Shown: one piece after another, positions 8,144-42,018 of the stretch | Numbering within the stretch: the first letter of the stretch is position 1 | Layout: each line of letters begins with the position of its first letter | NCBI GenBank assembly: GCA_024276465.1 | Contig: JAJRXD010000057.1 | Coordinates: 1 to 44,536, forward strand | Length of the DNA: 44,536 bases | Direction of reading: 5' to 3' | Source: Deltaproteobacteria bacterium | GTDB taxonomy: Bacteria > Desulfobacterota > WTBG01 > CAIYCZ01 > CAIRTM01 | Translations under genes and position numbers: made by a program | The notes under the pieces: model-generated | Databases searched by the model: none | Seen by the model: only the letters and a program-made list of their open reading frames with translations | Told to the model about the DNA's origin: nothing

Positions 8144-8154
8144 AAAAAGAGTAG

Positions 8155-8174
8155 ATTCCCGCTTTTGCGGGAAT
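8155..8174. repeat. REP-like palindrome
   Basis: attcccgc (8155-8162) and gcgggaat (8167-8174) form an 8-bp stem with a 4-nt loop, followed by gacagg. This is the classic shape of a dispersed palindromic repeat lying directly after the RND stop codon. It may act as an mRNA stabiliser or partial terminator inside the cluster. Confidence 0.55.
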
Positions 8175-8223
8175 GACAGGTGGGTTTTTGTAAATGTTTG
8201 GAATGGTTAAGGAGGGAGAAAAT

Positions 8224-8679
8224 ATGAAAAGATTTTTATCAGTAGTATGCATAACAGGTCTGTTTTCTGTTTTTACAGGTATCTGCAGTGTTTCTGCGTT
8301 TGAAGATGTGAGCCTGATTGAACCTGCGGTGGACATGGATATGGTGGTGATTCGCAACAATCAGTCAGTTACTGTTACCGCAGACCTGAGCGGACCGCTT
8401 GACTTCCAGCTGATACCGGTTATTGTCCTTGGCAAGGGAACCCTCAGGGTGACCATGTCAAGAACCAACACTCATGGAGAGCTGGTATATCTTTACCTGT
8501 ACGGGTTTGATGATTTTCTTGGCTTGAAAATAGATGGTAACATGGGAATAACACCGGTATCATTAACCGTTTCAAGCATAAACGGTTTGCTTGACTATAA
8601 TATCGGGTTTGTGATATCAGGGATACTTGTCTCTGCCGAGGAGCCGCCTTTTGAGTATAATGTGTCGTTCAGCTTCTGA
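8224..8679 (+). CDS. Small secreted protein of unknown family
   Basis: A 151-aa protein with a clear Sec signal peptide (MKRFLSVVCITGL..., cleavage likely near VSAFED, about residue 26). The mature part is about 125 residues, rich in alternating beta-strand-like sequence (SVTVTADLSGPLDF, GTLRVTMSR, ELVYLYLYG) and has no cysteines. The frame is open from 8194, but ATG 8224 has the ggagg site (8211-8216) and gives the signal peptide. It sits between the RND exporter and the DUF1302 outer-membrane gene. I recognise no family. A periplasmic carrier or accessory of the exporter is possible by position only. Confidence 0.72.
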   Translation: MKRFLSVVCITGLFSVFTGICSVSAFEDVSLIEPAVDMDMVVIRNNQSVTVTADLSGPLDFQLIPVIVLGKGTLRVTMSRTNTHGELVYLYLYGFDDFLGLKIDGNMGITPVSLTVSSINGLLDYNIGFVISGILVSAEEPPFEYNVSFSF

Positions 8680-8786
8680 TTGTTTTGGAACAGCAGGGAT
8701 GGAGGAAAACAGGATAACAGCAAAGAAATACTATAACCCATTCTGTTTCTGTTGAAACAAACAGCAACATGCTTAGGAGAGGGAAT

Positions 8787-10367
8787 ATGAAGACAGCAAG
8801 GACAGCAAAGTGTTTAACCGCCGTTTTCTTTATCGGTTTTTTAATACAGACTATGAGTGCGGGTTTTGCCTGTGCGGGATACCTGCAGCAGGGTTATGAG
8901 CCCATATCCCTTTTTAATGACCGCCTCAGGGTATCAGGCACATTTGATACTGAAACAAAATACCGCCTGAAGGTTTTAAAGTCCGCAACAGGTGTTCACA
9001 ATGAAGAGCGGCATGCAAGAAGTTCCAAAGTCAGCATGGTCCGCAGCAACCTGTCCCTTGAGCTGAACTGGTGGGCGGTCCAGAAACCGGACTTTGAAAT
9101 TAATGTTATATCCCATCTGTACTATTCCTATGATTTTACAGGCCATTTTGACGGCAGGTTCCAGAGAAACATTCCCAACCGCTCATACCATCAGTATATC
9201 CGAACCGCTGATAAGGACATCATACGGGAGTTGTTTGTTCAGATCCTTAAAGGTGACTGGGATGTGCGTATTGGCAAGCAGCAGGTGATCTGGGGAGAGC
9301 AGTTAGGGCAGAGAACCCTGGATGTTATAAACCCCCTTGACCTTCGAACCCAGGTTATCGGGCTTACAGAGTGGGAGAATGTAAGAATAGGTCTGTGGAT
9401 GATCCGCATGATAAGGCATACCAGCCTGCCGGGAGAGCTCGATTTTGAGGCCATTCTTATACCCAATGATTTTGAAAGTTTCAAGATGCCCCTTGAAGGA
9501 ACATATCTGGGAGGTATTTCCAGGCTCCCTGGCACCAAAGGCCCTACAGACCCCGGAACCCTTGGCTTTCAGGATCAGCTGTGGAGGGCCATGGAGCACG
9601 ACAAGCCCAGCCGCCACGGCCTGCACGGTTCAGAGTGGGGATTCAGAGTGAGGGGATTTGCCGCAGCCCTTGACCTTGACTGGTCAGCCATGTTTTTTCA
9701 TACCATTGATGACGGACCTGTTACAAAAAACATGGATCAATTCCTTGGCTGGCTTGGCGGTTATCCGGGTGTTCCATATTACAAAAGGCCCCATATCCCA
9801 AAGGGTACTTTTACTTACAGGCCTTATAATATCTTCGGGTTTTCCCTGCAGCGATACTTTGCCATGCTTGAGGCTGTTCTGAAGTTAGAGGTAGCCTATG
9901 AAGATAACAGGAATTATGATGCAGAGGGAGGCAGAGTTGTTGAAAGGGATGCAATCGGCGTGGGCTTTGCCATTGACAAGGATATGAAGGTCCCGTACCT
10001 CTACGAGCTTCAGGGAAACCAGGCAATGAGTTTCAGTGTTGAGCTGAACCAGCTGTGGTGGAGAGATTATCGCGAGTCCATAGACTTCAGCAGGACCCAC
10101 CCCAGAGGAGATACATATGATACATCCATTTCATGGTCAGCAACCCTTCATTTTTTTGATGACCGGTTCATGCCCATGTGCAGGGGCACCTACTACCTGA
10201 CCAGTGATGCAGGCAAAACCGCTATAACGCTGTATTTTAAGCCGGGACAGCACTGGAGCTACAGCCTGAGTTTAAGCATGTACTGGGCAAAGAGGTCTGA
10301 CAGAACACCATCCACAGCAATGGAAAAAAGGGATGCCCTGGGATTAAAAATCGCCTATATTTTTTAA
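8787..10367 (+). CDS. DUF1302-family outer-membrane protein
   Basis: A 526-aa exported protein with an N-terminal signal peptide (through about residue 30, ending FACAGY). It carries the DUF1302 core around residues 155-200: DWDVRIGKQQVIWGEQLGQ followed by LDVINPLDL. It is rich in aromatic amphipathic strands and ends in a beta-signal-like KIAYIF with a terminal Phe, as in outer-membrane barrels. The frame is open from 8769, but ATG 8787 follows aggagaggg and gives the better signal peptide. From general knowledge, DUF1302 genes commonly neighbour DUF1329, YCF48 and MMPL genes in proteobacteria, as here. It probably forms the outer-membrane end of a lipid or hydrophobic-compound pathway; the substrate is unknown. 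Confidence 0.88.
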   Translation: MKTARTAKCLTAVFFIGFLIQTMSAGFACAGYLQQGYEPISLFNDRLRVSGTFDTETKYRLKVLKSATGVHNEERHARSSKVSMVRSNLSLELNWWAVQKPDFEINVISHLYYSYDFTGHFDGRFQRNIPNRSYHQYIRTADKDIIRELFVQILKGDWDVRIGKQQVIWGEQLGQRTLDVINPLDLRTQVIGLTEWENVRIGLWMIRMIRHTSLPGELDFEAILIPNDFESFKMPLEGTYLGGISRLPGTKGPTDPGTLGFQDQLWRAMEHDKPSRHGLHGSEWGFRVRGFAAALDLDWSAMFFHTIDDGPVTKNMDQFLGWLGGYPGVPYYKRPHIPKGTFTYRPYNIFGFSLQRYFAMLEAVLKLEVAYEDNRNYDAEGGRVVERDAIGVGFAIDKDMKVPYLYELQGNQAMSFSVELNQLWWRDYRESIDFSRTHPRGDTYDTSISWSATLHFFDDRFMPMCRGTYYLTSDAGKTAITLYFKPGQHWSYSLSLSMYWAKRSDRTPSTAMEKRDALGLKIAYIF

Positions 10368-10448
10368 GCCTTTGGGGGCAAAATCCAGAAATCTATCTGC
10401 AGGTAGCTTGTTAGGAAAAATATTTGATAATGGAGGAGGAAGGATAAA

Positions 10449-11756
10449 ATGTTAGAGAAGAAAAAGACAGTTAATAAACCAAAAACACTTATCATGCTGC
10501 TGTTCATGACCTTCTGTCTCCTTGCGCCGCTGTACAGTTATGCAGAAGAGGCAAAATGGCTGGTTCCGCCGGGGTTTGAAGGAGAAGAACTTGCAAAGAT
10601 AAGGGAGTGGGAAAAAACATGGGTCGGTAAAAGAGTTGACAGGACCAATGTTGATCAGGTTAAGGAGTTTCTGCCAGCCCCTGTCCGTGACGTTATGGTG
10701 GAAAAAGACAAGTGGGGAGATTTTGATTTCTGGTTTGAGGTAGTGCCTTACAGAACATATCAGCCAACTCCGGGAATGATCAAGGCAACGGCTAAATACT
10801 CTCCAGGCTCCCGGTTTGAAAACGACAAGTATAATGCAATACTTGTTAACTACAAAGATATAGCGGGAGTTCCCTTTCCCAGGCCTAAAACAGGACAGGA
10901 GGTGGCATGGAACTTTAACTCATGGAGCAGGGGTGATACGGTATACAAAAAAGGGGGAGGATTTACAGTAAGTGCAAAATCCACAATGGAACGATACACC
11001 GGCCAGTTTTACTGGCGCACATTTTATGCCTCAAGGGTGGATCTCCCGCCTCTTCCAAGGATTCCTGACAAAAAAAACCCACGTGGAATAAGAAGGGCAA
11101 ACGTGATGAAAATGACCGCACCCACAAGCATGACAGACTTTGCCACCTTTTATGTCAAATATATTGACATGAACAAAGAGGATGACTCGTGGCTGTACTG
11201 GCCCAGGTTCAGGAAAGTTATAAGGCTTCAGTCTGACCAGAGGGATGATACGGTTGACGGAACAGACCTTATTAATGATGATGAAACAGGGTATGACGGC
11301 CGTGTTAATAAGAACAAATACAAACTTTTAGGAAGAAAAAAACTTCTCCTGTGCCGGCATACAGATCCCGCAAAATTTGAAAGGCATGAAGGAATGGTAA
11401 TGATGGGCGGGCTTCAAAGGGAGATGAATAATGTATATATGGTGGAAGTTTTTACCCAGCCTCCCAAATACGTGTATTCAAAACAGGTCTGGTATATTGA
11501 TCCGGAGACCTGGCTTATCAACTACAAGGAATGTTATGACCAGCAGGGGAGGCTGTGGAAATTTTATGAAAATTATCAAAACATGATTAAAAGCAAGGCA
11601 ACAGATAAAGGGGAAGTCCCGATTCAGAACGGAAGCACCTTTGTTGACATAATAAGACGGCACGGAACACCCGGTTCTGAGACCATGTTTCAGGTGGGAC
11701 TGGAAATTCCCCTGAACAAGTACTCAATTCGCGCTTTAGAAAGAAAGGCGTACTAA
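10449..11756 (+). CDS. DUF1329-family periplasmic/outer-membrane protein
   Basis: A 435-aa protein with an N-terminal signal peptide (about residues 14-32, ending SYAEEA). The DUF1329 pattern is clear: AREW-like start (KIREWEKTWVGK), the conserved GTDLINDDETGYDGR segment and a C-terminal YVYSKQVWYIDPETWLI block. The family is usually described as LolB-like outer-membrane lipoprotein-sorting proteins; no lipobox is seen here, so it is probably soluble periplasmic or peripherally bound. Start ATG 10449 has ggaggaggaagg upstream. It is followed after two bases by the YCF48 gene, whose ribosome binding site lies inside this gene. It may carry a hydrophobic ligand between the RND pump and the DUF1302 barrel. 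Confidence 0.88.
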   Translation: MLEKKKTVNKPKTLIMLLFMTFCLLAPLYSYAEEAKWLVPPGFEGEELAKIREWEKTWVGKRVDRTNVDQVKEFLPAPVRDVMVEKDKWGDFDFWFEVVPYRTYQPTPGMIKATAKYSPGSRFENDKYNAILVNYKDIAGVPFPRPKTGQEVAWNFNSWSRGDTVYKKGGGFTVSAKSTMERYTGQFYWRTFYASRVDLPPLPRIPDKKNPRGIRRANVMKMTAPTSMTDFATFYVKYIDMNKEDDSWLYWPRFRKVIRLQSDQRDDTVDGTDLINDDETGYDGRVNKNKYKLLGRKKLLLCRHTDPAKFERHEGMVMMGGLQREMNNVYMVEVFTQPPKYVYSKQVWYIDPETWLINYKECYDQQGRLWKFYENYQNMIKSKATDKGEVPIQNGSTFVDIIRRHGTPGSETMFQVGLEIPLNKYSIRALERKAY

Positions 11757-11758
11757 GA

Positions 11759-12844
11759 ATGAACAGACTGAAGACAAAACAGACCTTTTTTTTTCTGTCA
11801 ATTGTTTTTGTCACGGGATTCATCGTTGCAGGGTGCCAGGACAAAGGCTTAAAGCGGGGGGGGATGATGCGAAACAACCCCTACAAGGTTACTTCAGATG
11901 ACCTCCTCAGCATTAAAGCTGTAAATGATAAACAGGTCTGGACAGTTGGGTCGTTTGGAAACATTTTCCACACTTCCGATGGTGGTAAAACCTGGGAAAA
12001 ACAGAAAAGCAAAGTGGAAGAACAGCTCTGTGAGGTTGATTTTGTTGATGAGCTGAACGGGTGGGTTGTAGGATCCTATGGGCTGATCCTTCACACTGCG
12101 GATGGGGGGAAAAACTGGACCAGGCAGCAATCACCGGTTGACCGTCTTTTTATTAAAGTGGATTTTTATGATGAAAACCACGGCTGGGCAGTTGGTGAGC
12201 AGGGTACAATTGTGCGTACAGTTGATGGTGGGAAAACATGGGAGGATCACAGTATTAAATACGGGCCTGTCTTCAACGGAGTCTCTTTTGCAGACAGCAG
12301 CAGTGGCTGGATAGTGGGAGATTACGGAACTATTCTGCACACCATAGACGGGGGCATTACCTGGCAGGAGCAGAAATGTCAGGATATTGTTCCGGTTATA
12401 AAGCCCGATGAATGGGAACAGCCTCTGCCCATGCTGTATGATGTCTGTTTTGTGGATAATAACAGGGGGTGGATAGGAGGGGTTGACGGAATTATTCTGC
12501 ATACTGATGATGGCGGGAAAAACTGGCAAAAACTCAGGACAAATTCAAAGGGTAAGATCTATTCCATAGAAATTAAGGGAAACAGAGGGCTGGCAGTCGG
12601 AGATAAGGGAATATATATCTCTTCCAGCGATGGAGGTCTGACATGGACTGTCTCCATAGAAGCAATAAAAACAAGAAAATGGTTAAGGGACCAAAGCCTT
12701 GCCGGAGACCAGGGTGCCTGGATAGTAGGTTCAACCGGAACTCTGATAAGAAGCACGGATGGAGGGAAGAGCTGGGAAATGCTTTCAGGCAGAGCATATG
12801 AACTGCCTGTGAGAAAAAAAATGCTGACTCAGAACAAAAGTTAA
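11759..12844 (+). CDS. YCF48/BNR seven-repeat beta-propeller lipoprotein
   Basis: A 361-aa lipoprotein with signal peptide and lipobox (VAGC, Cys about 29). Seven repeats of the form G-x-x-G-x-I-x-x-T-x-D-G-G-K-x-W are readable, for example FHTSDGGKTW, LHTADGGKNW, VRTVDGGKTW, LHTIDGGITW, LHTDDGGKNW, ISSSDGGLTW and IRSTDGGKSW, enough for one complete seven-bladed propeller. This is the Ycf48/HCF136-like group, known in photosystem II assembly in cyanobacteria and widespread with unknown function elsewhere. It starts two bases after the DUF1329 stop (coupled translation). In this cluster it probably acts as a membrane-tethered scaffold or assembly factor for the export complex. Confidence 0.9.
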   Translation: MNRLKTKQTFFFLSIVFVTGFIVAGCQDKGLKRGGMMRNNPYKVTSDDLLSIKAVNDKQVWTVGSFGNIFHTSDGGKTWEKQKSKVEEQLCEVDFVDELNGWVVGSYGLILHTADGGKNWTRQQSPVDRLFIKVDFYDENHGWAVGEQGTIVRTVDGGKTWEDHSIKYGPVFNGVSFADSSSGWIVGDYGTILHTIDGGITWQEQKCQDIVPVIKPDEWEQPLPMLYDVCFVDNNRGWIGGVDGIILHTDDGGKNWQKLRTNSKGKIYSIEIKGNRGLAVGDKGIYISSSDGGLTWTVSIEAIKTRKWLRDQSLAGDQGAWIVGSTGTLIRSTDGGKSWEMLSGRAYELPVRKKMLTQNKS

Positions 12845-12898
12845 AATTGGGTGCAGACAAAAGCTTAATGAGTGCGCCAAAAAAGGGGAGAACATGAG

Positions 12899-12937
12899 CC
12901 ACAGGGCTCTCAGAGAAATACTCTGTGTTCTCTGTGG
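12899..12937. repeat. Imperfect inverted repeat between propeller genes
   Basis: ccacag (12899-12904) pairs with ctgtgg (12932-12937) and cagag (12911-12915) with ctctg (12921-12925), followed by a T-rich stretch. Sequence of this ctctgtgttctctgtgg type recurs in intergenic DNA of many bacteria. The reading frame of the next gene is open through it, but there is no translation signal upstream of it. Confidence 0.4.
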
Positions 12938-12980
12938 TTTGTTTTTAAAAACAGTTAAAAATGAAAAAGGAGAGATGTAT

Positions 12981-14828
12981 ATGACTAAAAGGAACCAGTT
13001 TTTCTGTCTGGTAACATCTGTTGTATTTTTAATTGCAGTTGGTTTTTTCTCGCTGCTTTTTGCTGATGCTGCCAGCGCAACAGAGTATCCATGGGCCTCA
13101 TTCAGGCACGACCTTAACAACTCAGGGGCAGCTGTTGATTCAGGCTATCCCACAACCGCAAAACTCCTCTGGGAAAAGGAAAGAGGAAAAGAACCCCCAA
13201 AGAATACCCCTGCAGCCTGCTCTTCGCCAATTGTGGTGGATGGTGATGTTCTTATCACGACCGGACATGGCGGAGTGGTTGAGGCAAGGAATCCTGAAAC
13301 AGGAAACATTATCTGGACAAAAACCTATACATGGATACCCAAGCCACCAAACCCTTCTGATGCGCCAAAAGACTGGTGTCTTGGCTCAAATCCGACCCTT
13401 GAAACAAACACAGCGGTTTGCCGCTATAAAATTGATGGTACGTGCCCTGACTGGTGCTTTGAATGTTCTGATAAGCCGAGAGACTGCTCAGGGAAACGAA
13501 ATGATGGAAGCTCGCTGGTCAGCCCGCTGCATTTCCCAAAGGAATACGGAACATTTGTCAGCGGTGCAACTATTGACTATAACCCCATGACCAAAACAGG
13601 ACGAGTCTACTTTGGAACAATGGATGGCAGGTTTTTTTGTCTTGACCTGAAAACAGGCAAAGAAATATGGCAGAAGGAGCCCTGGAAGGAGCCGGGCGGA
13701 CCAAATGAAGGAAGAGCCTGGTATGACCAGAAATTTGCATGGCACCTTTCGCCCCCCTCAATTTACAAGGATAAGCTTTTTGTGGGATCCTTTCTCCCAA
13801 GCTTCTACTGGGTATTCAAGGCCATGCCTTTTGCGCTGAATAAGAAAGGGCATTCCAGGCCGGGCTGGCCATCTTTTGGAACTGACTACAAGCAGTTCTG
13901 GGTAGGGCGTGACGGGTGGACGTACTGTATGGATAAAAACACAGGTAAGATTAAATGGGGCTGGGACCCCGGGGGCTGTGGGGTTACCAACCTTCCTCCG
14001 GTAGCAGGAGGAAAAGTCTTTTTCAATGCAGATACTGTTATTGATTACCACTACGGGCAGATGGCAGCAGTGGATATTGAGACAGGCAAAGAGGTGTGGC
14101 AGGTGGGCCCCATACCTCTGGCCCAGGGCGGCAGCCCGTCAATTTCAGCCTCAAGGAATACAATTTTCTATCCTGAAGGTGACGGTGCAGTATGGGCTGT
14201 GGACCTTGAGACAGGCCGTGTTAAGTGGACGACCCATGTGGGGTTCTGCATTAAAGGTGCAACAGGCGCTGCTGCTTCGCTGGCAGTAGATGATGGCAGG
14301 GGGCTGGTGATAGGCTCTTCTGATACGGGCCGGGTTTTTGTGCTGGATATGGATTCAGGGAAAATAATCCGCCAGGGCTATCTCGGGCTTCCCAACTGGC
14401 AGCCGGAACAGGGTCAGCCTGAATCAGGCTTCTGGTTTTCAGGCGCAGCATCTGTGGCGCTTGTTCCAAAACAGGGCATTCTTTATGTTGCAGGGACTGA
14501 TTATGAAAGTGCGTGGAAAGGCAAAAAGAGCAAGGGAAAAGAAAAACTTTTCTGTTATGATTATACATCGTCAGGTGACACGATCAAGCTGTTATGGGAC
14601 AGGCAGTTTTTCGGGAAAAATGGCAATGAATTTATTGTTGGCGGGCACAGTCCCTACCAGGTCTCCTTTTACTCCATGAGTTCGCCATGCCTGTCAAACG
14701 GGCATGTTTACTTTGGCTCGTTTAACGGGCATGTCTACTGTTTCGGGGATGGTTTTGGGGCCAGGCCAAAAAACGCGGTAAAAGCTGAAAAATTTCTGGC
14801 AGTTCCTTCTTCAACCGGAAACAATTAA
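12981..14828 (+). CDS. PQQ-type beta-propeller secreted protein (BamB/quinoprotein-like)
   Basis: A 615-aa secreted protein with a signal peptide (about residues 1-33, ending SATEYP). Repeats of the PQQ/WD-like form D-x-x-T-G-K-x-x-W occur through the length: ARNPETGNIIW, LDLKTGKEIW, MDKNTGKIKW, VDIETGKEVW, VDLETGRVKW and LDMDSGKII, about 7-8 blades. A Cys-rich insertion near residues 130-170 holds six to seven cysteines (CLGS, CRYK, CPDWCFEC, CSGK), probably disulfides; there is no CxxCH haem motif. The frame is open from 12894, but AAGGAG (12967-12972) is spaced for ATG 12981. It closes the cluster before a terminator. Dehydrogenase catalysis is unproven; a structural scaffold is equally possible. 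Confidence 0.88.
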   Translation: MTKRNQFFCLVTSVVFLIAVGFFSLLFADAASATEYPWASFRHDLNNSGAAVDSGYPTTAKLLWEKERGKEPPKNTPAACSSPIVVDGDVLITTGHGGVVEARNPETGNIIWTKTYTWIPKPPNPSDAPKDWCLGSNPTLETNTAVCRYKIDGTCPDWCFECSDKPRDCSGKRNDGSSLVSPLHFPKEYGTFVSGATIDYNPMTKTGRVYFGTMDGRFFCLDLKTGKEIWQKEPWKEPGGPNEGRAWYDQKFAWHLSPPSIYKDKLFVGSFLPSFYWVFKAMPFALNKKGHSRPGWPSFGTDYKQFWVGRDGWTYCMDKNTGKIKWGWDPGGCGVTNLPPVAGGKVFFNADTVIDYHYGQMAAVDIETGKEVWQVGPIPLAQGGSPSISASRNTIFYPEGDGAVWAVDLETGRVKWTTHVGFCIKGATGAAASLAVDDGRGLVIGSSDTGRVFVLDMDSGKIIRQGYLGLPNWQPEQGQPESGFWFSGAASVALVPKQGILYVAGTDYESAWKGKKSKGKEKLFCYDYTSSGDTIKLLWDRQFFGKNGNEFIVGGHSPYQVSFYSMSSPCLSNGHVYFGSFNGHVYCFGDGFGARPKNAVKAEKFLAVPSSTGNN

Positions 14829-32340: not shown

Positions 32341-32485
32341 CTAGTGTCGTGTCAACAATATAAAGTCGCATGTCATTGCGAGCTTAGCGAAGCAATCTTG
32401 TGCTTTTTGCCAAAAAGATTGCCGCGGCCTTCGGCCTCGCAATGACTATCTTTGTTGCGCCGTTACAGGTTTGACACAACACTAG
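32341..32485. mobile_element. MITE-like element with terminal inverted repeats
   Basis: Terminal repeats ctagtgtcgtgtcaa (32341-32355) and ttgacacaacactag (32471-32485) match in 14 of 15 positions in inverted orientation. Inside is a palindrome of the widely seen gtcattgcgag type: 32372-32382 with 32436-32446 (perfect 11 bp) and gcaatctt (32392-32399) with aagattgc (32415-32422). It is 145 bp and encodes no transposase, as expected of a MITE mobilised in trans. It sits between the MBL hydrolase gene and mltD, just upstream of mltD, so it may affect mltD expression. No clear target duplication was seen. A perfect 8-bp hairpin lies beside it at 32529-32548. Confidence 0.65.
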
Positions 32486-32604: not shown

Positions 32605-33240
32605 CTATTTTATTCCATGTTTTTCCTTATATTCAAGCCAGTTCTTTTTTAAGTCCAGGAAAGACTCAAAGGAATCCCTGAGAATAAACGGGTTGGTTTT
32701 TTTCTCCCTGCCGATGGTTGATTCAGGGGCAACACCGTAATCATGACCCGGGAATACACCTGCTTTGTCGGGAAGAACCATCAGTTTGCTGTGGAGAGAA
32801 TCATACTCCCTGCGGGCATCGTCTCCAAAACCTGTTCCGCCAACTTTACCAACAAACAATGTGTCACCGCTCATGAGTTTGTTCTCAACAAGGACACATA
32901 TTGAATCCGGTGTGTGCCCTGGAGAATGAATCAGTTTTACTGTCAACTCTCCCAGGAATAACTCATCACCGTCCTTTACGCTTATTCCAGGCGGGTGAAG
33001 GCCGAACCCCACCAGGCTGGCGTTGCTGTTTTTTACAATATAATCATTTCCATTGCTGTGATCATAATGGGAATGCGTATTGATGACATACCTTATTTTC
33101 AGATTGTACTTTTTTGCAAGCTCCAGAACAGCCTTTGGATTAAATGCAGGATCAACAGCAGCACCCTGCCCTGATTTTTCATCGCCAAAAAGATATGCGA
33201 AATTTCTGTCCCCCCCAATTTTTATCTGTTCAAATATCAT
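32605..33240 (-). CDS. MBL-fold hydrolase (glyoxalase II / persulfide dioxygenase-like)
   Basis: A 211-aa metallo-beta-lactamase-fold enzyme: NTHSHYDHSNG (His56, His58, Asp60, His61), HSPGHTPDSI, SGDTLFVG and FPGHDYG carry the two-metal ligands. This pattern fits hydroxyacylglutathione hydrolases and related thiol enzymes. Its start overlaps the bshA stop by 4 bases (ATGA), so it belongs to the bacillithiol operon. A role in cleaving S-acyl-bacillithiol or oxidising bacillithiol persulfide is likely by analogy with glutathione and Staphylococcus enzymes. Lactonase or sulfidase activities are alternatives. Confidence 0.88.
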   Translation of the reverse strand: MIFEQIKIGGDRNFAYLFGDEKSGQGAAVDPAFNPKAVLELAKKYNLKIRYVINTHSHYDHSNGNDYIVKNSNASLVGFGLHPPGISVKDGDELFLGELTVKLIHSPGHTPDSICVLVENKLMSGDTLFVGKVGGTGFGDDARREYDSLHSKLMVLPDKAGVFPGHDYGVAPESTIGREKKTNPFILRDSFESFLDLKKNWLEYKEKHGIK

Positions 33241-34355
33241 GATATCCCCCTGTTGTTTAAAATCTTTTCGTAACAGGCTTCGTACTTTGAAACAATGATG
33301 TCATTGCTAAATCGTTCCAGGGCTGAGAGGGCAGCACTCTGCCCCATCTCTTCCCACTTTTTTTTGTTTAACAGAAGTTCGACGCAGCACATGGCTATTG
33401 TATTAACCTCTCCAACAGGACATAAAATGCCTGTTTTTTCATTTTGAACAACCTCTGTTAATCCACCGGAGCGGGATGCAACCACCGGAATGCCGCAGGC
33501 CATGGCTTCCAGCGCAGACAGTCCGAAGGATTCGTAATCGCTCAGCAGCAGAAACAGGTGACTTTGTCTGAATATTTTTTCGATGTTTACCCTGGATCCG
33601 GCAAAAGTTACCTTGTCGCAGAACCCCAGTTCAGAGCAGAGTTCCCTTGCAATGCCCAGATCAGGGCCTTCTCCAACGAGTGTAAGGTGTGCAGGAATAT
33701 GTTTCTGAATTTCATAAAACACCCGGATTGTATCTGCGGTTCGTTTAACCGGCCGGAAATTGCTTACATGAAGAATTTGAAAGGATTTCCCCTTAGGATA
33801 TGGAGCCTGTTGTTCAGGATTAAAACGTGAACCGTCAAAAAAATTATATATCACTTCCGGTTCCCGTGAGATGTTAAACTCCTTCATGGTTCTGTTTTTC
33901 AGCCAGTTTGATACAGTGGTCAGTCCATCGCATTTCAGCATGGCAAACCTGCAGATTTTGTAAAAATCAGGATGGCTGCCAACAAGTGTAATGTCTGTGC
34001 CGTGCATTGTAGCCACTATTTTTACGGGTTTAGGCTGTACAATATGTTTGGCAAGAATTGCACATATGGCATGGGGCACGGCATAGTGAGCATGGATGAT
34101 ATCCAGGTTATATTTTTCAGTGATTTCAGCAAGCCTGTTAACCAGGCTGAGATCATGCGGGGGGAATTCAAACAGGGGATAATCCGGTATAGTAACTTTG
34201 TGAAACTGCACGGATCTGTTTTTGCCAAGCCGGTAAGGGCGGTTACGGCTGATCAGGTGAATTTCATGTCCCCGTGCGGCCAGAGCAACAGCAAGTTCTG
34301 TGGCTACAATTCCACTTCCGCCCTGGGACGGATGGCATGTTACTGCAATTTTCAC
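33237..34355 (-). CDS. bshA: N-acetyl-alpha-D-glucosaminyl L-malate synthase
   Basis: BshA joins UDP-N-acetylglucosamine to L-malate, the first step of bacillithiol synthesis. A GT4/GT-B glycosyltransferase of 372 aa, normal length. Family marks: VKIAVTCHPSQGGSGIVATE at the N-terminus, IIHAHYAVPHA, ATMHGTDITLVG and LFLLLSDYESFGLSALEAMA for the donor site. The frame is open to 34493, but GTG 34355 matches the family N-terminus, follows gaggaagg and starts 13 bases after bshB. It overlaps the MBL hydrolase gene by 4 bases. Confidence 0.95.
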   Translation of the reverse strand: MKIAVTCHPSQGGSGIVATELAVALAARGHEIHLISRNRPYRLGKNRSVQFHKVTIPDYPLFEFPPHDLSLVNRLAEITEKYNLDIIHAHYAVPHAICAILAKHIVQPKPVKIVATMHGTDITLVGSHPDFYKICRFAMLKCDGLTTVSNWLKNRTMKEFNISREPEVIYNFFDGSRFNPEQQAPYPKGKSFQILHVSNFRPVKRTADTIRVFYEIQKHIPAHLTLVGEGPDLGIARELCSELGFCDKVTFAGSRVNIEKIFRQSHLFLLLSDYESFGLSALEAMACGIPVVASRSGGLTEVVQNEKTGILCPVGEVNTIAMCCVELLLNKKKWEEMGQSAALSALERFSNDIIVSKYEACYEKILNNRGIS

Positions 34356-34368
34356 GGCACCACCTTCC

Positions 34369-35088
34369 TCAAATTTTCGTAAAAGGTTTGTAAAGCTCAA
34401 CCGGGTCGTCAACTGGTACAGGCCTGCGAACATAAAAGGGCTCACCGAATGTTTTCTGGATAAGGCTGCCATAATGGCGTGCACGCGCTTCAAGTATCAG
34501 TTTGAAATCGGGTTTTGCTATAATTGTTTCGGGCCCTTTGATGTCAGAGTTGTAAAGTTGAGATTGATAGCAGTCCACAGCCGCTGTTTTTTTTTCAAAG
34601 TAATCACTCACATCAACTATAAAGCTGGGTTCAAAAGGGAGGTGCCCCATAAAAAACAGAACTTCGCTGGGACGGAATGGCATACCACCAGCAGGGAAGT
34701 TGGCCATTCCCATGGGATACATAATGTCCTTCATCATATCACCAGCCTGACAGTGATCCGGGTGCAGATCTTCCCAGTGGTGAGTCATAACAATGACAGG
34801 GCGAAATTTGCGTATGATTTCAATCAGCTTGGTTTTATTAGCCCGGTTGTTTTCCAGTCTGCCATCACCCATGTCAAGACATATGCGCTCTGTAATTCCC
34901 AGAACTTCCGATGCTTTTTCTGCCTCCCTGCGTCGAACCTCGGGTGTCCCGCGTGTACCTGTTTCTCCACGTGTCAGGTCTACAACAGCCACACGTTTAC
35001 CATGTGCAACAAGCTTTGCAATGGTTCCTCCTGCTATCAGCTCAATATCATCGGGATGCGCTCCAACAGCCAGCACATCAACTCTCAT
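34369..35088 (-). CDS. bshB: Bacillithiol biosynthesis deacetylase
   Basis: BshB removes the acetyl group from GlcNAc-malate. A 239-aa zinc enzyme of the LmbE/PIG-L family: VGAHPDDIELIAGG near the N-terminus (His11, Asp13, Asp14), TRGETGTRGT, and HHWEDLHPDHCQAG with further metal/catalytic residues. Its ATG overlaps the bshC stop (ATGA type, 35085-35088). The gene sits between bshC and bshA in the order of biosynthesis, which fixes its role; LmbE relatives alone would be ambiguous with mycothiol deacetylases or BshB2 amidases. Confidence 0.94.
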   Translation of the reverse strand: MRVDVLAVGAHPDDIELIAGGTIAKLVAHGKRVAVVDLTRGETGTRGTPEVRRREAEKASEVLGITERICLDMGDGRLENNRANKTKLIEIIRKFRPVIVMTHHWEDLHPDHCQAGDMMKDIMYPMGMANFPAGGMPFRPSEVLFFMGHLPFEPSFIVDVSDYFEKKTAAVDCYQSQLYNSDIKGPETIIAKPDFKLILEARARHYGSLIQKTFGEPFYVRRPVPVDDPVELYKPFTKI

Positions 35089-36689
35089 GGCTTTGCCCCC
35101 AGATTAAAATTCGGTTCTATTTCCGCAACCTGGTGGCACAAATTTTCAGGATCAAAAAGCTCAAGAGAGCGTGAAATAAAATCAGGGCCGTAGCGACCAA
35201 GAAACTGAAAAATATTGACCACTCGCTCCTGTGGTTTACCTGAAGGTAATATGGAATTTGAAATTTTTTCCAGATTTTTTCTGCCTAATCCCATTTCATG
35301 CAGTTTTTCTTCTGCAAGCTTTCTTCTGATCTTTTCAAGGTTGTACTGAATTGCATCGCGGGATTTGTTCAGCCATTTTTTATTCTGGTCGGTCTTAAAG
35401 CAGTCAATACAGTCCAAAAGTTTCTGGCTTACTGCTTCAAGTTCTTCAATTTTGTCAAGGACAGTGATATCAGGTTTGTAATTCGACAGGAAATCCCTCA
35501 CATAAAAGATCTGATCCGGATAGAGGCCAGAACATATTGCCGCTTTTTTAATGTTGTTCTCTAAAATGGTTGTACTGATTCGGGGAAACAATTTTGAACG
35601 TGTGATTCCGGCCGCAAGGTATAAAGGTGATATTTGCCACGAATAGAGCAGCTCATCAGGACCACCTATATAGACCATGGTCGGGATAACAGCATCCTGG
35701 AGCAGGGGCCGAAGAGCTGCCCCCGGGGAAAAATCCATGGGCCTGCTCCGGATGAGATCTGCTGCAGGGGCGAAGTTTTTGGCTCCTGGAGAAGGTTCAG
35801 CGACATGTTTGTTCAAGTTGAATTTTATACGCCTGCCTTCAGCAATTTTAAAAATATTTAGCGTTGACAGGGGTGGGGAAATCCTGTTACGCCTCAGCAT
35901 CTCTTTTCCACGCTCAAAGGCTTTTTTAATGTCTTCCCACTGCCCGACAATTGAAGCCAGAACAGGCGCGGAAACAGGGCGCAGGGCAATGGGATCAATA
36001 AAGACAACAGGCCAGTCTTTAAATATTTTTTGAAGCAATGTTGCAAACAATTTGCCGTAATCCTCAAAGTTGCATGAGCCGACCATATCCATAATCCACT
36101 CGAAAAAATCATTGTGAGGCAGAGCATCATGTAAAAACTTTAACAGATGTTCACGGCACCCCTTCAGACTGATCTCTCCAACCTGAGGCATATGGCCTGT
36201 TTCTAAAATGCATTTGTCCCACACAAATTTTTGTCCGTTGACCACACATCTGTTTACTTCAGGCAGATCGTGGTCTTCTGTTGCAATCCAGATTCCGGGA
36301 ATTAATGGGGTTTGTGAAATCTGTTCGAGCCGTCTGGAAAGACTGATAATTGAAACAACCTTTAAAAATGTAAAAAGCGGACCTGTTAAAAGTACAGGCT
36401 GGTGACCGGTCAGAACAAATCTTCCGTCAGTCTGAATAGCATGCACAGTGCTGTTGCTAAGGGGGTTTCCCACGAGTTTATTGTATTGCTGAAGCAGCAC
36501 GGATAACCTGCTGCGGTCAAGAAATTCAGAATTGCTGGAATGATGTATGTGGCTTCTTGAAAAGACAGGCACTGTTTCGGAAAGCTCTCCTCTGTTCAGG
36601 CGGGCAATGAGGCTGTCAGAACCGAACCACGGGTGTTCGGAATAATCAACCCCCCTTATTTTAAATTGAAAAGAAGCCATGCCCATCAC
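35085..36689 (-). CDS. bshC: Bacillithiol biosynthesis cysteine-adding enzyme
   Basis: BshC attaches L-cysteine to glucosaminyl-malate, giving bacillithiol; it is a cysteine ligase-like Rossmann protein. The 534-aa protein shows FVLTGHQPVLLTGPLFTFLK (about 91-110), IWIATEDHDLPEVN (about 133-146) and a long C-terminal coiled-coil, with the family length. Start options are GTG 36689 or ATG 36686, both placed behind AAGGA and overlapping the methyltransferase stop. With bshA and bshB the whole known pathway is present in one operon. Confidence 0.94.
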   Translation of the reverse strand: MMGMASFQFKIRGVDYSEHPWFGSDSLIARLNRGELSETVPVFSRSHIHHSSNSEFLDRSRLSVLLQQYNKLVGNPLSNSTVHAIQTDGRFVLTGHQPVLLTGPLFTFLKVVSIISLSRRLEQISQTPLIPGIWIATEDHDLPEVNRCVVNGQKFVWDKCILETGHMPQVGEISLKGCREHLLKFLHDALPHNDFFEWIMDMVGSCNFEDYGKLFATLLQKIFKDWPVVFIDPIALRPVSAPVLASIVGQWEDIKKAFERGKEMLRRNRISPPLSTLNIFKIAEGRRIKFNLNKHVAEPSPGAKNFAPAADLIRSRPMDFSPGAALRPLLQDAVIPTMVYIGGPDELLYSWQISPLYLAAGITRSKLFPRISTTILENNIKKAAICSGLYPDQIFYVRDFLSNYKPDITVLDKIEELEAVSQKLLDCIDCFKTDQNKKWLNKSRDAIQYNLEKIRRKLAEEKLHEMGLGRKNLEKISNSILPSGKPQERVVNIFQFLGRYGPDFISRSLELFDPENLCHQVAEIEPNFNLGAKP

Positions 36690-37426
36690 TCTTTTTCCTT
36701 AGTCCCCACAGTAATCATTCGCTCTGTGTTTTTCTTCAGAGGGGTGCCTTTAAAGGACCCGAAAAACCTTACATCTTTAAGACCTGAGGTTTGGAACAGT
36801 CTCTTGATTTCATCAGGATAGAACAGCCGAACATTTTCTGTTAAACAAGTTGCAGAACCATCCCCGCTGATAAGCGTTATTTCTTTAATGACACGATTTT
36901 TTTCTATCCTGCGCTTTTGCAGCACTTCCCATTCGCCACGCTGTTGCTGGTTTTCTTTTATAAGATTTCGCTGCAGGTTGTAACGGTTAATGTGGTCAAG
37001 CACCAGCAAACCACCGGGCCTGAGCAGAGCAACCATCTCCTTTAATGCTGCCATGTTTTGACTGTCTTCTAAAAAATAACCGAAACTCGTGAACAGGTTA
37101 AAAACCACGTCAAAACAGCTCTTAAACGGCAGCGAGCGCATCTCGGCATTAATTATTCTACCTGCTGTTGCTGGATGGTTTGAAGCTTTTTTTAACAGGG
37201 CCATTGAAAGGTCTGTTCCCCAGGCATTAAAACTCCTGGCCACCAGGGCGGACAAATGGCGGCCTGTTCCGCAACAGATGTCAAGAATCTGCTCATCACC
37301 TGTTAAATTAAGGACCTTGATAAGCTGCTTTATTTCGCGGTCTGCTGACGAGTCATCGCGGTGGGGATAAAGGATGGGATAGAACTCACCAAAAGCCTGG
37401 ATATACCATTCGGACATAGCTTTCAA
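36686..37426 (-). CDS. Class I SAM methyltransferase, candidate N-methyl-bacillithiol synthase (NmbA-like)
   Basis: A 246-aa Rossmann methyltransferase: QILDICCGTGRHLSAL is motif I (SAM Gly loop), AWGTDLSMALL is motif II, CFDVVFNLFTSFGYF motif IV, and LLRPGGLLVLDHINRY motif VI. It lies directly upstream of bshC with a 4-base overlap, so the two are translated together. In Chlorobaculum tepidum the methyltransferase NmbA, also tied to bshC, makes N-methyl-bacillithiol. I infer the same product here; the assignment rests on context and fold class, since I cannot align it to NmbA. Alternatively it is a general small-molecule methyltransferase. Confidence 0.85.
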   Translation of the reverse strand: MKAMSEWYIQAFGEFYPILYPHRDDSSADREIKQLIKVLNLTGDEQILDICCGTGRHLSALVARSFNAWGTDLSMALLKKASNHPATAGRIINAEMRSLPFKSCFDVVFNLFTSFGYFLEDSQNMAALKEMVALLRPGGLLVLDHINRYNLQRNLIKENQQQRGEWEVLQKRRIEKNRVIKEITLISGDGSATCLTENVRLFYPDEIKRLFQTSGLKDVRFFGSFKGTPLKKNTERMITVGTKEKE

Positions 37427-37454: not shown

Positions 37455-37949
37455 TCATGTTTCCTGATTCTCGCGAACAAGAACATAAAATTTTTTGTTG
37501 TTCAACAGAAAACAGAACCTGTCTTCTGCTTCCTGTTGAATATGCTGTGCTAACTGGTAGTATGGCGGCCTTAAAAACCGTGCAGGGAAAAGCCCCTTTT
37601 TTACCCTGCAATAGGGGATATTGTCTTTACCGATATAAAAGGTGTTCATGTCCAGTTTTTCCTCTGTTTCATCATTGAGTTTTATTCTGAAAAACTCTCT
37701 TCCCTCTTTGTCGGAACTTACAAAAGTAATTTTTGCAACAACATACGGAGTGTCTTCAACCACAAGCTTACATGTTTCTTTGCCGACCTGTAAAAGATAG
37801 CCCCCTTTTCCGTCTTTTATTATATGCTGGTTGAAAAACAGGAATATTTTTTTGTTTATAATGGGAAGATCATTATAAAACCAGTTGCCCTCTTTATCTA
37901 TTTTTATTGTTTGCTTTTCACTTAAAAAGCTGTTCCTGTTCAGATCCAC
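37455..37949 (-). CDS. DUF1285-family protein
   Basis: A 164-aa protein with the DUF1285 pattern: IKIDKEGNWFYNDLPIINKK at the N-terminus, then KGGYLLQVGKETCKLVVEDTPYVV and further beta-rich sequence. The start is GTG 37949 with AGGAG five bases upstream. Function is unknown. It lies between ppiD (45 bases upstream) and the methyltransferase gene (28 bases downstream) in one minus-strand run, so it may be cotranscribed with the bacillithiol genes. No signal peptide or membrane segment. Confidence 0.8.
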   Translation of the reverse strand: MDLNRNSFLSEKQTIKIDKEGNWFYNDLPIINKKIFLFFNQHIIKDGKGGYLLQVGKETCKLVVEDTPYVVAKITFVSSDKEGREFFRIKLNDETEEKLDMNTFYIGKDNIPYCRVKKGLFPARFLRPPYYQLAQHIQQEAEDRFCFLLNNKKFYVLVRENQET

Positions 37950-37993: not shown

Positions 37994-39895
37994 TTAAAAC
38001 AATCTGTTGTCCACCCATATTTCTGTCCTGGCCTTAAGCTTTTGCAAATACCTGTCAAAAGCTTCTTTTCTTTTCTCCTGAAGAACTGTCTGAGCTGTTT
38101 TATCCTTTTCTTTCTCAAACTCAGCATCATCCGTACCCGTTTTCTCCTTTAACCTGACAAGAAAGATACCCCGGTCTGTTTGAAAACAGGTGGCAGCAAA
38201 AGATCCCGGGCTGTCTAAAGCAAAAGCAGCCTTTTTCAGCTCTTTTGAGCTTCCAATTCCAGAAACAAAATCCCCCTGTCTATGCAATTCAACCTCTTCA
38301 ACCTTCAGACCATATTTTTTTTCGAGGCCATCCCATTTCTCCTCTCCGCTTATTAGCTGAGACAGTATTTTATCTGCCTTATCTTTTGCCATTTGCAGCC
38401 TTTTTTTCTTTTTCACTTCTTTTTCAATTTCAGATTTTACCTCCTCAACAGAAGGAATATGGGATTCTTTTTTGTCCACAAGTTTCAAAAGGAAATATCT
38501 CTGCCCTATTGCAAAAGCAGGTGCCATCTCTCCGGGAGAGAGCAAAAAAGTTTCTTCTGAAAACACCTCTTTTCCAGGCCTGTCCTCAGGGGCTTTCCCG
38601 AAAACAAAATAGCCTGTTTCTAACAGCTCTAAATCGTTCTCTGTTGCGTATTTCTCAATATTTCTATCTTTAAACAGTCTGTTATAAGCTCTTTTAGCAG
38701 TCCTTTTTACCAGTTCCTGGGCTTTTTCCTTTCTAATATCTTCTTCAATTTCAGATTTTACTTCCTCAAGAGGCTTTGTTCTTGCCTGCTTTTTGTCTTC
38801 CACCTGGATAATGTGAAACCCAAACTGTGTTCGGACAGGGGAACTTGTTTCACCGGGCTTAAGCGAAAAAGCTGTTTCCTCAAAAGGTTTAACCATCTGC
38901 CCTTTTTTAAAATAACCCAGATCACCCCCTTTTTCCGCAGAGGAGGGATCCTCGGAATATTTTTTTGCAAGGGTTTCAAATTTTTCTCCCTTGTTCAGCT
39001 GATCCAGTATGTCCAGAGCCTTTTTTCTGGTTTCGGCTACTTCCTTCTCTGAAGCATCTTTCTTTACGATCAACAGAATATGCTTTGCTTTCACCTGTTC
39101 CGGCTCAAAAAACTGTTCCATGTCCTGTTCATAGTATTCTTCTATCTCTTTATCAGAAACATCTACTTTCTGCTCAAATGTCTTTGGATCAAATATAATA
39201 TATTTTACCCTGGCTTTTTCAGGAACCCTGAAACCAGCTTTATTTTTTTCAAAATATTCGTTCAGCTCCTCTTGAGAAACCAGGGGTTCTTCTTTTATGT
39301 TTTCAGGATTAATTTTTATATATTCTATCTTTACCTTCTCTTTTTGGAGATTGTACACCTCTCTTATCTCCTCTTCTGATACAATAACAGAGTTTTTTAC
39401 CAGATTTTCAAGTATCTTTATTAACAACTCCCTTTCCTTGGCCTTCTCAAAATCCTTAGCAGAAACCCCATTATAGCTAAGCATCCTTTTATATAATCCC
39501 GGGCTGAATATACCGTTTTCCTGAAAGGTTTGAGTTTCTATTATTGCTTTTCTAACTTGTTCAGGCGTTGCCTTTATATTAAGATGTTCAGCCTCCTGAA
39601 GAAGAATCTCCCGATCTATCAAGTCTTCCAATGTTTTTTGTTTTAACCCCATATCCTCTATGTTCTTTGCAGAAAGACTTTTCTGATAAATGTTTCGGTA
39701 AAACTGGAGCATGTTATTGTATGCTTTTTTGTACTCAGCCATGCTTATCTTTCTATCGCCAACAGAAGCAATAGCATCAGACTCCTTTTTTCTGACCTCG
39801 TTAAAACCGTAAAAGAAAACAAAGACAATGACAATTATTGTAAACAGCACCTTTATTATCCAGGAACTTGCATTTTTTCGCATATAAGAAAGCAT
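37994..39895 (-). CDS. ppiD: PpiD/SurA-like periplasmic peptidyl-prolyl isomerase
   Basis: A 633-aa membrane-anchored chaperone. Residues 1-11 are cytosolic, a single helix (about 12-32) anchors it, then a SurA-type N-terminal chaperone region (about 38-200), a parvulin domain (about 265-360: AKHILLIVKK, AKKYSEDPSSAEKGGDLGYF, FGFHIIQVEDKK) and a long C-terminal helical/parvulin-like segment. PpiD helps proteins leaving the Sec translocon fold. It begins the long minus-strand run that includes the bacillithiol genes; a good promoter lies just upstream. The ribosome binding site is ggggg. Confidence 0.93.
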   Translation of the reverse strand: MLSYMRKNASSWIIKVLFTIIVIVFVFFYGFNEVRKKESDAIASVGDRKISMAEYKKAYNNMLQFYRNIYQKSLSAKNIEDMGLKQKTLEDLIDREILLQEAEHLNIKATPEQVRKAIIETQTFQENGIFSPGLYKRMLSYNGVSAKDFEKAKERELLIKILENLVKNSVIVSEEEIREVYNLQKEKVKIEYIKINPENIKEEPLVSQEELNEYFEKNKAGFRVPEKARVKYIIFDPKTFEQKVDVSDKEIEEYYEQDMEQFFEPEQVKAKHILLIVKKDASEKEVAETRKKALDILDQLNKGEKFETLAKKYSEDPSSAEKGGDLGYFKKGQMVKPFEETAFSLKPGETSSPVRTQFGFHIIQVEDKKQARTKPLEEVKSEIEEDIRKEKAQELVKRTAKRAYNRLFKDRNIEKYATENDLELLETGYFVFGKAPEDRPGKEVFSEETFLLSPGEMAPAFAIGQRYFLLKLVDKKESHIPSVEEVKSEIEKEVKKKKRLQMAKDKADKILSQLISGEEKWDGLEKKYGLKVEEVELHRQGDFVSGIGSSKELKKAAFALDSPGSFAATCFQTDRGIFLVRLKEKTGTDDAEFEKEKDKTAQTVLQEKRKEAFDRYLQKLKARTEIWVDNRLF

Positions 39896-40434: not shown

Positions 40435-42018
40435 TTATTCCAGTACAGGACACCCACTTCTGGTATACTGATTTTTCATAACAGCCAGGTCAAAGATATC
40501 TACCTTGCCGTCATCATTAGAGTCTGCATCACAGGGGTTTGAATTACAGGCAGTCCTGTTATATTCGTTTTTCAGAATAGTAAGATCAAAAATATCAACC
40601 GCTGTACTATTATCAAAGTCTGAGTAACATTCACAGGCATCCCCAATGCCGTTTACATTAAAGTCTCCCTGTTCCATCTGACAGAAATCCAGGGTTTTGC
40701 AGGTGCTGTTGTCTGAACACGCGGCCCCCATACCAATGATAACACTGCTGATTGTCCTCATGCAGGTGCCATTGCCCGGCCCGTTTGGGCTTAAAGGGCA
40801 GTTGTCAATATCACCGCAAATGGTGTCATTGTCAAAGTCGTTTTCCGGATCATATGGACACAGGTCAATATCGCCACAAATCCCGTCCCCATCTATGTCA
40901 TTGTCAGCATCAAAAGGACAGCTGTCACAAACATCCCCCAGGGAATCATTGTCAGAATCTGTCTGGTCAGAATTGGCTGTTAAAGGGCAGTTATCGCAAA
41001 CATCCCCTGTATAATCATTATCAGTATCAGTCTGGTCGGAATTGGCTGTCACAGGGCAGTTGTCCACATCCCCGCAAACAGTGTCATTATCAGCATCATT
41101 TGCAGGGTCATACGGGCAGTTGTCCACAGAACACAAGTTTTCAGAAAACCCGGGATTGCCTAAACCATCACCATCCGTATCCGTGCAGATATCACAGGCA
41201 TCCCCTGTGCCGTCTTCATCAGAATCTGTCTGGTCAGGGTTTGTTTTTGCAGGGCAGTTGTCAATATCACCGCAAATCCCGTCTCCATCCACGTCATTGT
41301 AAGTATCAAAAGGGCAAACATCACAGGCATCCCCTATAAAATCAAAATCCACATCTGACTGGTTGGCATTTGCGATAAAATGACAGTTGTCAAAAACATC
41401 AAGAATTCCGTCATTGTCATCGTCATAATCACAGGCATCCCCAATACTGTCATTGTCAGTATCTGTCTGGGCCGGATTATGGTCCTCCGGGCAATTATCT
41501 TCAAAATTATAAACACCGTCACCATCACTGTCGATAGAGGATGAAAAGCAAAACCATCCTGACTCCAGCGTTACTCCCAGCGGGCTGCCATATGTATCTG
41601 AAACAACTGCATTTGCCATATCAAGGCTTTTGCATTCTCCCAAAGGAGCAGTTGGGGAAACAGCATAGGTTACAGTTAAAACAGGGCCTGTTCCATGCTG
41701 GATACGCGCAAATGCAGCTATGCTGATAAGGACCACCCTGCATTCACCGCCCGGCAGTTCGTTGGTTGAGCAGACAAATTCGGGCGCACGCCCCGGGTCA
41801 GGTGAACAACCCAGACAGGAGAGGAAATTGTCTGAATCAGAAATGTCTACCTGAATTGCTTTAACAGTGTCATTCGGGTTATCAAGGCTGACAGGGACAA
41901 TATCCGACTCACCAGGCAAAGCAGCCCCATATTCAACAGTTAAAGTTACTGCTGCATGGCTCAATAAGGGATAAAGGAGAACACACCACACCTCGATTGA
42001 AAAAAACAGTTTTTTCAT
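40435..42018 (-). CDS. Secreted cohesin-like / thrombospondin type 3 / dockerin-like protein
   Basis: A 527-aa exported protein. Signal peptide (about 1-22, ending SHAAVT). Residues about 23-155 resemble a cohesin-type beta-sandwich ([14 protein letters not shown], then [13 protein letters not shown]). Residues about 163-425 are thrombospondin type 3 calcium repeats (many copies of DSDGDG, NCP, QTDTDND, GDACD). The end (about 465-525) has two dockerin-like EF-loop copies: [20 protein letters not shown] and [20 protein letters not shown]. It probably binds much calcium and sits outside the cell. It is preceded by a GEMM-type riboswitch. Monocistronic with its own terminator. Cohesin assignment is the least certain part. 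Confidence 0.87.

Follow-up and report, generated by a model that had tools for sequence, protein, structure and literature searches.

A five-gene operon in the window (the whole 44,536-nucleotide stretch of DNA that was analysed) very probably encodes the synthesis of N-methyl-bacillithiol, with the catalysis and the product deduced from gene content, gene order, orthology, conserved residues, and distribution. In the proposed pathway, BshA would couple GlcNAc to malate, BshB1 would take off the acetyl group, BshC would attach cysteine to give bacillithiol, and the NmbA orthologue encoded by the first gene would methylate the cysteine amino group with SAM as donor; a thioester or a persulfide is the probable substrate of the MBL-fold enzyme encoded by the last gene. 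Production of the methylated thiol by the host is predicted. The NmbA enzyme class, its pathway, and its wide distribution (1765 species) were published in 2018 and 2025 (PMC6282198, PMC12719100), and the elements added here are the occurrence in a lineage nearly without bacillithiol genes, the recurrent nmbA-bshC coupling over many phyla, and a residue signature that tells NmbA apart from closely related enzymes of genomes lacking bacillithiol genes. The likely distribution of N-methyl-bacillithiol widens to include the host lineage, and the compact five-gene cassette offers a way to probe the effect of thiol methylation. No paper on bacillithiol in the Desulfobacterota was found in a literature search whose scope left aside the supplementary lists of PMC12719100.

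Operon architecture and bacillithiol genes

The five genes were found on a single strand in the order methyltransferase, bshC, bshB, bshA, and MBL-fold protein (Table 1), with three junctions overlapping by 4 bases and one 13-base gap, exactly as the original prediction had placed them. The methyltransferase starts with TTG (alternative in-frame ATG at 37417) and bshC with GTG, where GTGA forms the overlap with the methyltransferase stop and an alternative ATG would leave a 1-base overlap. Both the bshC/bshB and the bshA/MBL junctions consist of a 4-base ATGA overlap, and bshA starts with GTG at 34355, 13 bases past the bshB stop, the gap containing the ribosome-binding-site-like stretch GAGGAAGG. 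A scan for promoters and terminators gave a result close to the shuffle expectation.

Table 1. Features of the operon and its flanks, with positions in the window.
Feature	Position	Strand	Remark
Dispersed repeat between operon and lytic transglycosylase gene	32377..32484	-	Near-identical copy on contig C96 of the same genome
MBL-fold hydrolase, ETHE1/glyoxalase II superfamily, GKVGGT subgroup	32605..33240	-	4YSB match, Foldseek
bshA, GlcNAc-malate glycosyltransferase	33237..34355	-	TIGR03999
bshB1, GlcNAc-malate deacetylase	34369..35088	-	TIGR04001
bshC, cysteine-adding enzyme	35085..36689	-	PF10079, PF24850
nmbA-like SAM-dependent methyltransferase, predicted bacillithiol N-methyltransferase	36686..37426	-	246 aa
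DUF1285-like gene just upstream of operon, lineage-native	37455..37949	-	Orthologues beside ppiD in six relatives
ppiD-like peptidylprolyl isomerase, native flank	37994..39895	-	Orthologues in family members

Family assignment from profile scores appears firm for BshA (451 bits against the equivalog cut-off of 273.7) and BshB1 (254.7 bits against 182.5). It appears good for BshC, which exceeded the cut-offs of PF10079 (167 bits, E 1.5e-48) and PF24850 (8e-17) and scored slightly below that of the equivalog TIGR03998 (258 bits against 265.8). BshA, BshB, BshC, and the NmbA-like methyltransferase are all encoded in one genome, in which no bacillithiol disulfide reductase (Bdr/YpdA) over cut-off and no BrxA/B were found. 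The original prediction called bacillithiol best known from the Firmicutes; it is not mainly a thiol of that group, as pathway species in the 2025 survey are more numerous in the Bacteroidota (2111) than in the Bacillota (1466; PMC12719100).

The methyltransferase and its NmbA-like relatives

The assignment of the methyltransferase as an NmbA orthologue rather than a UbiE-type enzyme is well supported by sequence comparison. Its family profile match was the generic Methyltransf_25; among PDB sequences the top phmmer match was Chlorobaculum tepidum NmbA (9RI2, E 9e-32, residues 5-237 of 246), followed by 5BSZ (1.6e-12) spanning residues 7-144 only. The alignment with CT1040 that had been proposed as a check gave full-length homology with 31% identity across 242 columns (pairwise), and these values lie within the NmbA thresholds of the 2025 survey (E <1e-20, coverage >80%, identity >25%), with the E-value here coming from a database other than the paper's. 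The two proteins are reciprocal best hits, C. tepidum NmbA retrieving the methyltransferase at 2.1e-31 and the next gene of the host genome at 1.2e-6. UbiE-like and glycine N-methyltransferase identities were rejected, as those models scored far below their own cut-offs and below NmbA. In vitro methylation of bacillithiol is documented for the NmbA enzymes of C. tepidum and Paenibacillus polymyxa (PMC12719100), and thiol content agreed with the prediction from nmbA presence in the tested species (PMC6282198).

A genome scan yielded 80 NmbA relatives, one of them from P. polymyxa (L065), by means of the patterns [SR]EW[YF]..[AW]F and SFGYF..D, so that conservation at the pattern positions is biased; R23, R56, R172, K181, E197, G223, and R236 fall outside these patterns. 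All 26 residues invariant among 81 other NmbA sequences are retained by the methyltransferase, including R23, R172, K181, E197, and R236, which lie outside the SAM-binding core motifs. In the first tree, two outgroup sequences with a branch length of 10 were placed within the Ignavibacteriota, most likely a long-branch artefact, and the tree was therefore rerun without them, upon which the NmbA set was parted from the outgroup (SH-aLRT 96). With the paralogue outgroup, the methyltransferase grouped with nmbA of Fermentibacterota and Hydrogenedentota (93/87) and, in the same clade, of Krumholzibacteriota (95/92), and bshC comes next in all three. UbiE-like clustering, named beforehand as a refuting outcome, was absent, the protein falling inside the NmbA tree. 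Its AF2 model (pLDDT 94.3) had 9RI2 as first Foldseek match by E-value, at a TM-score of 0.68-0.70 that was below those of several other methyltransferases; the crystal structure of NmbA has a cap domain with an unusual strand order, and the crystal paper reports that AlphaFold misplaces these strands. Sequence, tree, invariant residues, and fold all give good support to the earlier claim that the bacillithiol operon is complete and carries a methyltransferase of the NmbA type.

NmbA-like enzymes are more widespread in the phylum than bacillithiol genes. Of 395 genomes, 71 gave a match to the NmbA profile (E up to 1e-20), and the 70 other than the host yielded no BshC. Seventeen NmbA-like methyltransferases from elsewhere in the phylum were examined: R23, K181, and E197 were all replaced in every one, and no bshA, bshB, or bshC was detected near them (mostly within ~8 kb per side, less at contig ends). 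In the tree these sister enzymes fell into separate well-supported sets, and the branch parting all of them from NmbA was unsupported. Homology alone consequently does not imply bacillithiol methylation. The window enzyme passes the stricter residue test by keeping R23, K181, and E197, which we infer to bind bacillithiol; these three positions (window numbering) form a short signature that could give a stricter prediction of N-methyl-bacillithiol than percent identity. NmbA-like enzymes with changed substrate-side residues, in genomes of the phylum where no BshC was found, occur at L151 and L152 (G149, G221) and at L153-L157 (f32 genomes), and at the former two loci the gene adjoins one resembling a B12-type radical SAM enzyme.

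Alternative readings, host genome, and origin

The operon might instead yield plain bacillithiol, with the methyltransferase acting on another small molecule. The NmbA-like enzymes of the 70 genomes lacking BshC indicate that the wider family has other substrates, and outlying NmbA sequences may likewise have other acceptors (PMC12719100). Further points against an N-methyl-bacillithiol product are the 31% identity to C. tepidum NmbA, the BshC score slightly under the equivalog cut-off, the lack of a Bdr over cut-off and of BrxA/B in the genome, and the TM-score of 0.68-0.70 to 9RI2. However, the NmbA-like enzymes examined differ at R23, K181, and E197, all kept by the window enzyme, which is moreover translationally coupled to bshC and has nearest relatives that also adjoin bshC; this alternative is accordingly considered quite improbable, and synthesis of N-methyl-bacillithiol is the preferred reading.

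The place of the MBL-fold protein in that pathway is less certain. The protein matched the Lactamase_B family and the ETHE1-type persulfide dioxygenase 4YSB (E 1.3e-31), and Foldseek placed ETHE1 first for a poor model (pLDDT 72.9) built from three sequences. It shares the MBL fold, HxHxDH, and the other metal-ligand positions with ETHE1-type persulfide dioxygenases (4YSB) and glyoxalase II, and differs from the former in carrying GGTG in place of the GRTD motif. R139 and D141 of this motif are essential in AcPDO (PMC6060420), and both positions are glycine in the window protein. A canonical persulfide dioxygenase was ruled out by the replaced motif and a canonical glyoxalase II by the GloB equivalog TIGR03413 (94.4 bits, under the cut-off of 200.8). 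As an addition to the operon reading, the protein may genuinely belong to the thiol pathway and hydrolyse or dioxygenate bacillithiol conjugates, a possible role that is judged less likely than not: in its favour, its gene overlaps bshA by 4 bases, and relatives adjoin nmbA-bshCBA in a Bipolaricaulota (45% identical) and an Aminicenantes locus (54%). Against this role stand the loss of the R and D essential in a persulfide dioxygenase and the orthologues (69% and 58% identity) in two relatives of the same family that lack bshC, one of them beside genes resembling 2-oxoacid:ferredoxin oxidoreductase subunits (G071, L135 5542-9268). Because such close orthologues occur in relatives lacking bshC, the link to bacillithiol conjugates is weak and only suggested, and the original view of an enzyme fit for thiol conjugates was not sustained. 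A more specific proposal, judged rather unlikely, assigns the protein to a subgroup of its own (GGDRN, GDTLFVGKVGGT): members lying beside nmbA-bshCBA would be dedicated to hydrolysing conjugates of bacillithiol or N-methyl-bacillithiol, would have been recruited in at least three phyla, and would employ the thiol site of neither persulfide dioxygenases nor glyoxalase II.

The absence of bshC from all 16 classmates examined and a bin contamination estimate of 4.4% would also fit a contig mis-binned from another phylum, with a host devoid of the operon. This was rejected as extremely improbable on composition, neighbouring genes, and a common dispersed repeat: tetranucleotide make-up agrees with the other contigs of the genome (correlation with the rest of the genome 0.93-0.97), the bsh genes share one contig with ppiD and DUF1285 genes orthologous to those of family members (41-67% identity, order kept), and the repeat that lies next to the operon recurs in near-identical form elsewhere in the genome. 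This repeat spans ~100 bases (TCATTGCGAGG...GGCAATC), and its second copy lies around 11182 of L139 (contig C96). Elsewhere in the window, a protein with thrombospondin type 3 repeats and a dockerin type I domain is encoded at 40435-42018, and a plus-strand run of MMPL transporter, DUF1302, DUF1329, YCF48-like (BNR), and PQQ-propeller genes (5789-14828) looks like an envelope or lipid export cluster.

BshC was identified in two of the 395 sampled genomes of the phylum, namely the window host and G018, the latter not among the 70 genomes with NmbA-like enzymes. The class was represented by 16 further genomes, eight from the host's family, and all of them lacked BshC. In G018 (L003 7766-10629, GC 70%), bshC overlaps bshA with no bshB between, and no nmbA was detected near this bshC in the fetched 16 kb. 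Orthologues of ppiD are 56% identical in G071 and 41-52% in five other family members, and the ppiD-DUF1285 pair lies side by side in these six relatives with differing genes downstream, including a ProC-like gene on the opposite strand in three. An exact empty site was sought in the relatives and rejected, since the pair is conserved and the sequence after it differs; the insertion point is therefore bounded on one side only, with the DUF1285-like gene as the putative 5' boundary of the acquired operon. The rarity of BshC in phylum and class together with the conserved ppiD-DUF1285 neighbours suggests that the operon was horizontally acquired and inserted downstream of this native pair, and the occurrence of the nearest methyltransferase, BshC, and BshB on one Fermentibacterales contig suggests transfer as a block. 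As G+C content and tetranucleotide make-up fit the host genome, the transfer would not be very recent, or the donor genome was similar. The gene dsrA was over cut-off in 46 of 99 genomes of the phylum, which makes the Desulfobacterota placement given in the original prediction plausible, and no orthologue was detected in the window genome.

Gene order in other phyla and comparison with known systems

At 11 of 20 loci outside the Bacillota, nmbA is directly followed by bshC, comprising loci of Fermentibacterota, Hydrogenedentota, Gemmatimonadota (two), Bipolaricaulota, Calditrichota, Planctomycetota, KSB1, Latescibacterota, Krumholzibacteriota, and Aminicenantes, and recurrence at so many loci in many phyla argues that the adjacency is not due to chance. 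In 60 Bacillota loci and in the Chlorobiota and Ignavibacteriota loci, the neighbourhood of nmbA showed no bshC.

The enzymes of C. tepidum (CT1040, 9RI2) and P. polymyxa resemble the window methyltransferase in full-length homology, in being class I SAM methyltransferases with a cap, in the invariant residues, and in co-occurrence with BshA, BshB, and BshC. The parallel to C. tepidum drawn in the original prediction was right as to the enzyme and wrong as to the linkage, which is instead found in other phyla: by locus tag, nmbA (CT1040) is unlinked to bshC (CT1558). Unlike the window operon, in which nmbA (product 31% identical) and bshC are translationally coupled, C. tepidum has its four genes scattered (CT1040, CT1558, CT1419, CT0548).

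The closest counterpart is a Candidatus Fermentibacterales MAG (L012), where nmbA-bshC-bshB follow the gene order of the window and encode, on one contig, the nearest proteins for the methyltransferase, BshC, and BshB (46%, 36%, and 62% identity, compared to 40%, 27%, and 43% for the next-nearest). This contig ends within bshB, leaving bshA and the MBL gene beyond view, and its GC content is 67% compared to 45% in the window. The same five gene types as in the window are present in the Aminicenantes (L091) and Bipolaricaulota (L032) loci, arranged as MBL-nmbA-bshC-bshB-bshA with nmbA 33-35% identical, so that the MBL gene precedes nmbA there, whereas it follows bshA in the window.
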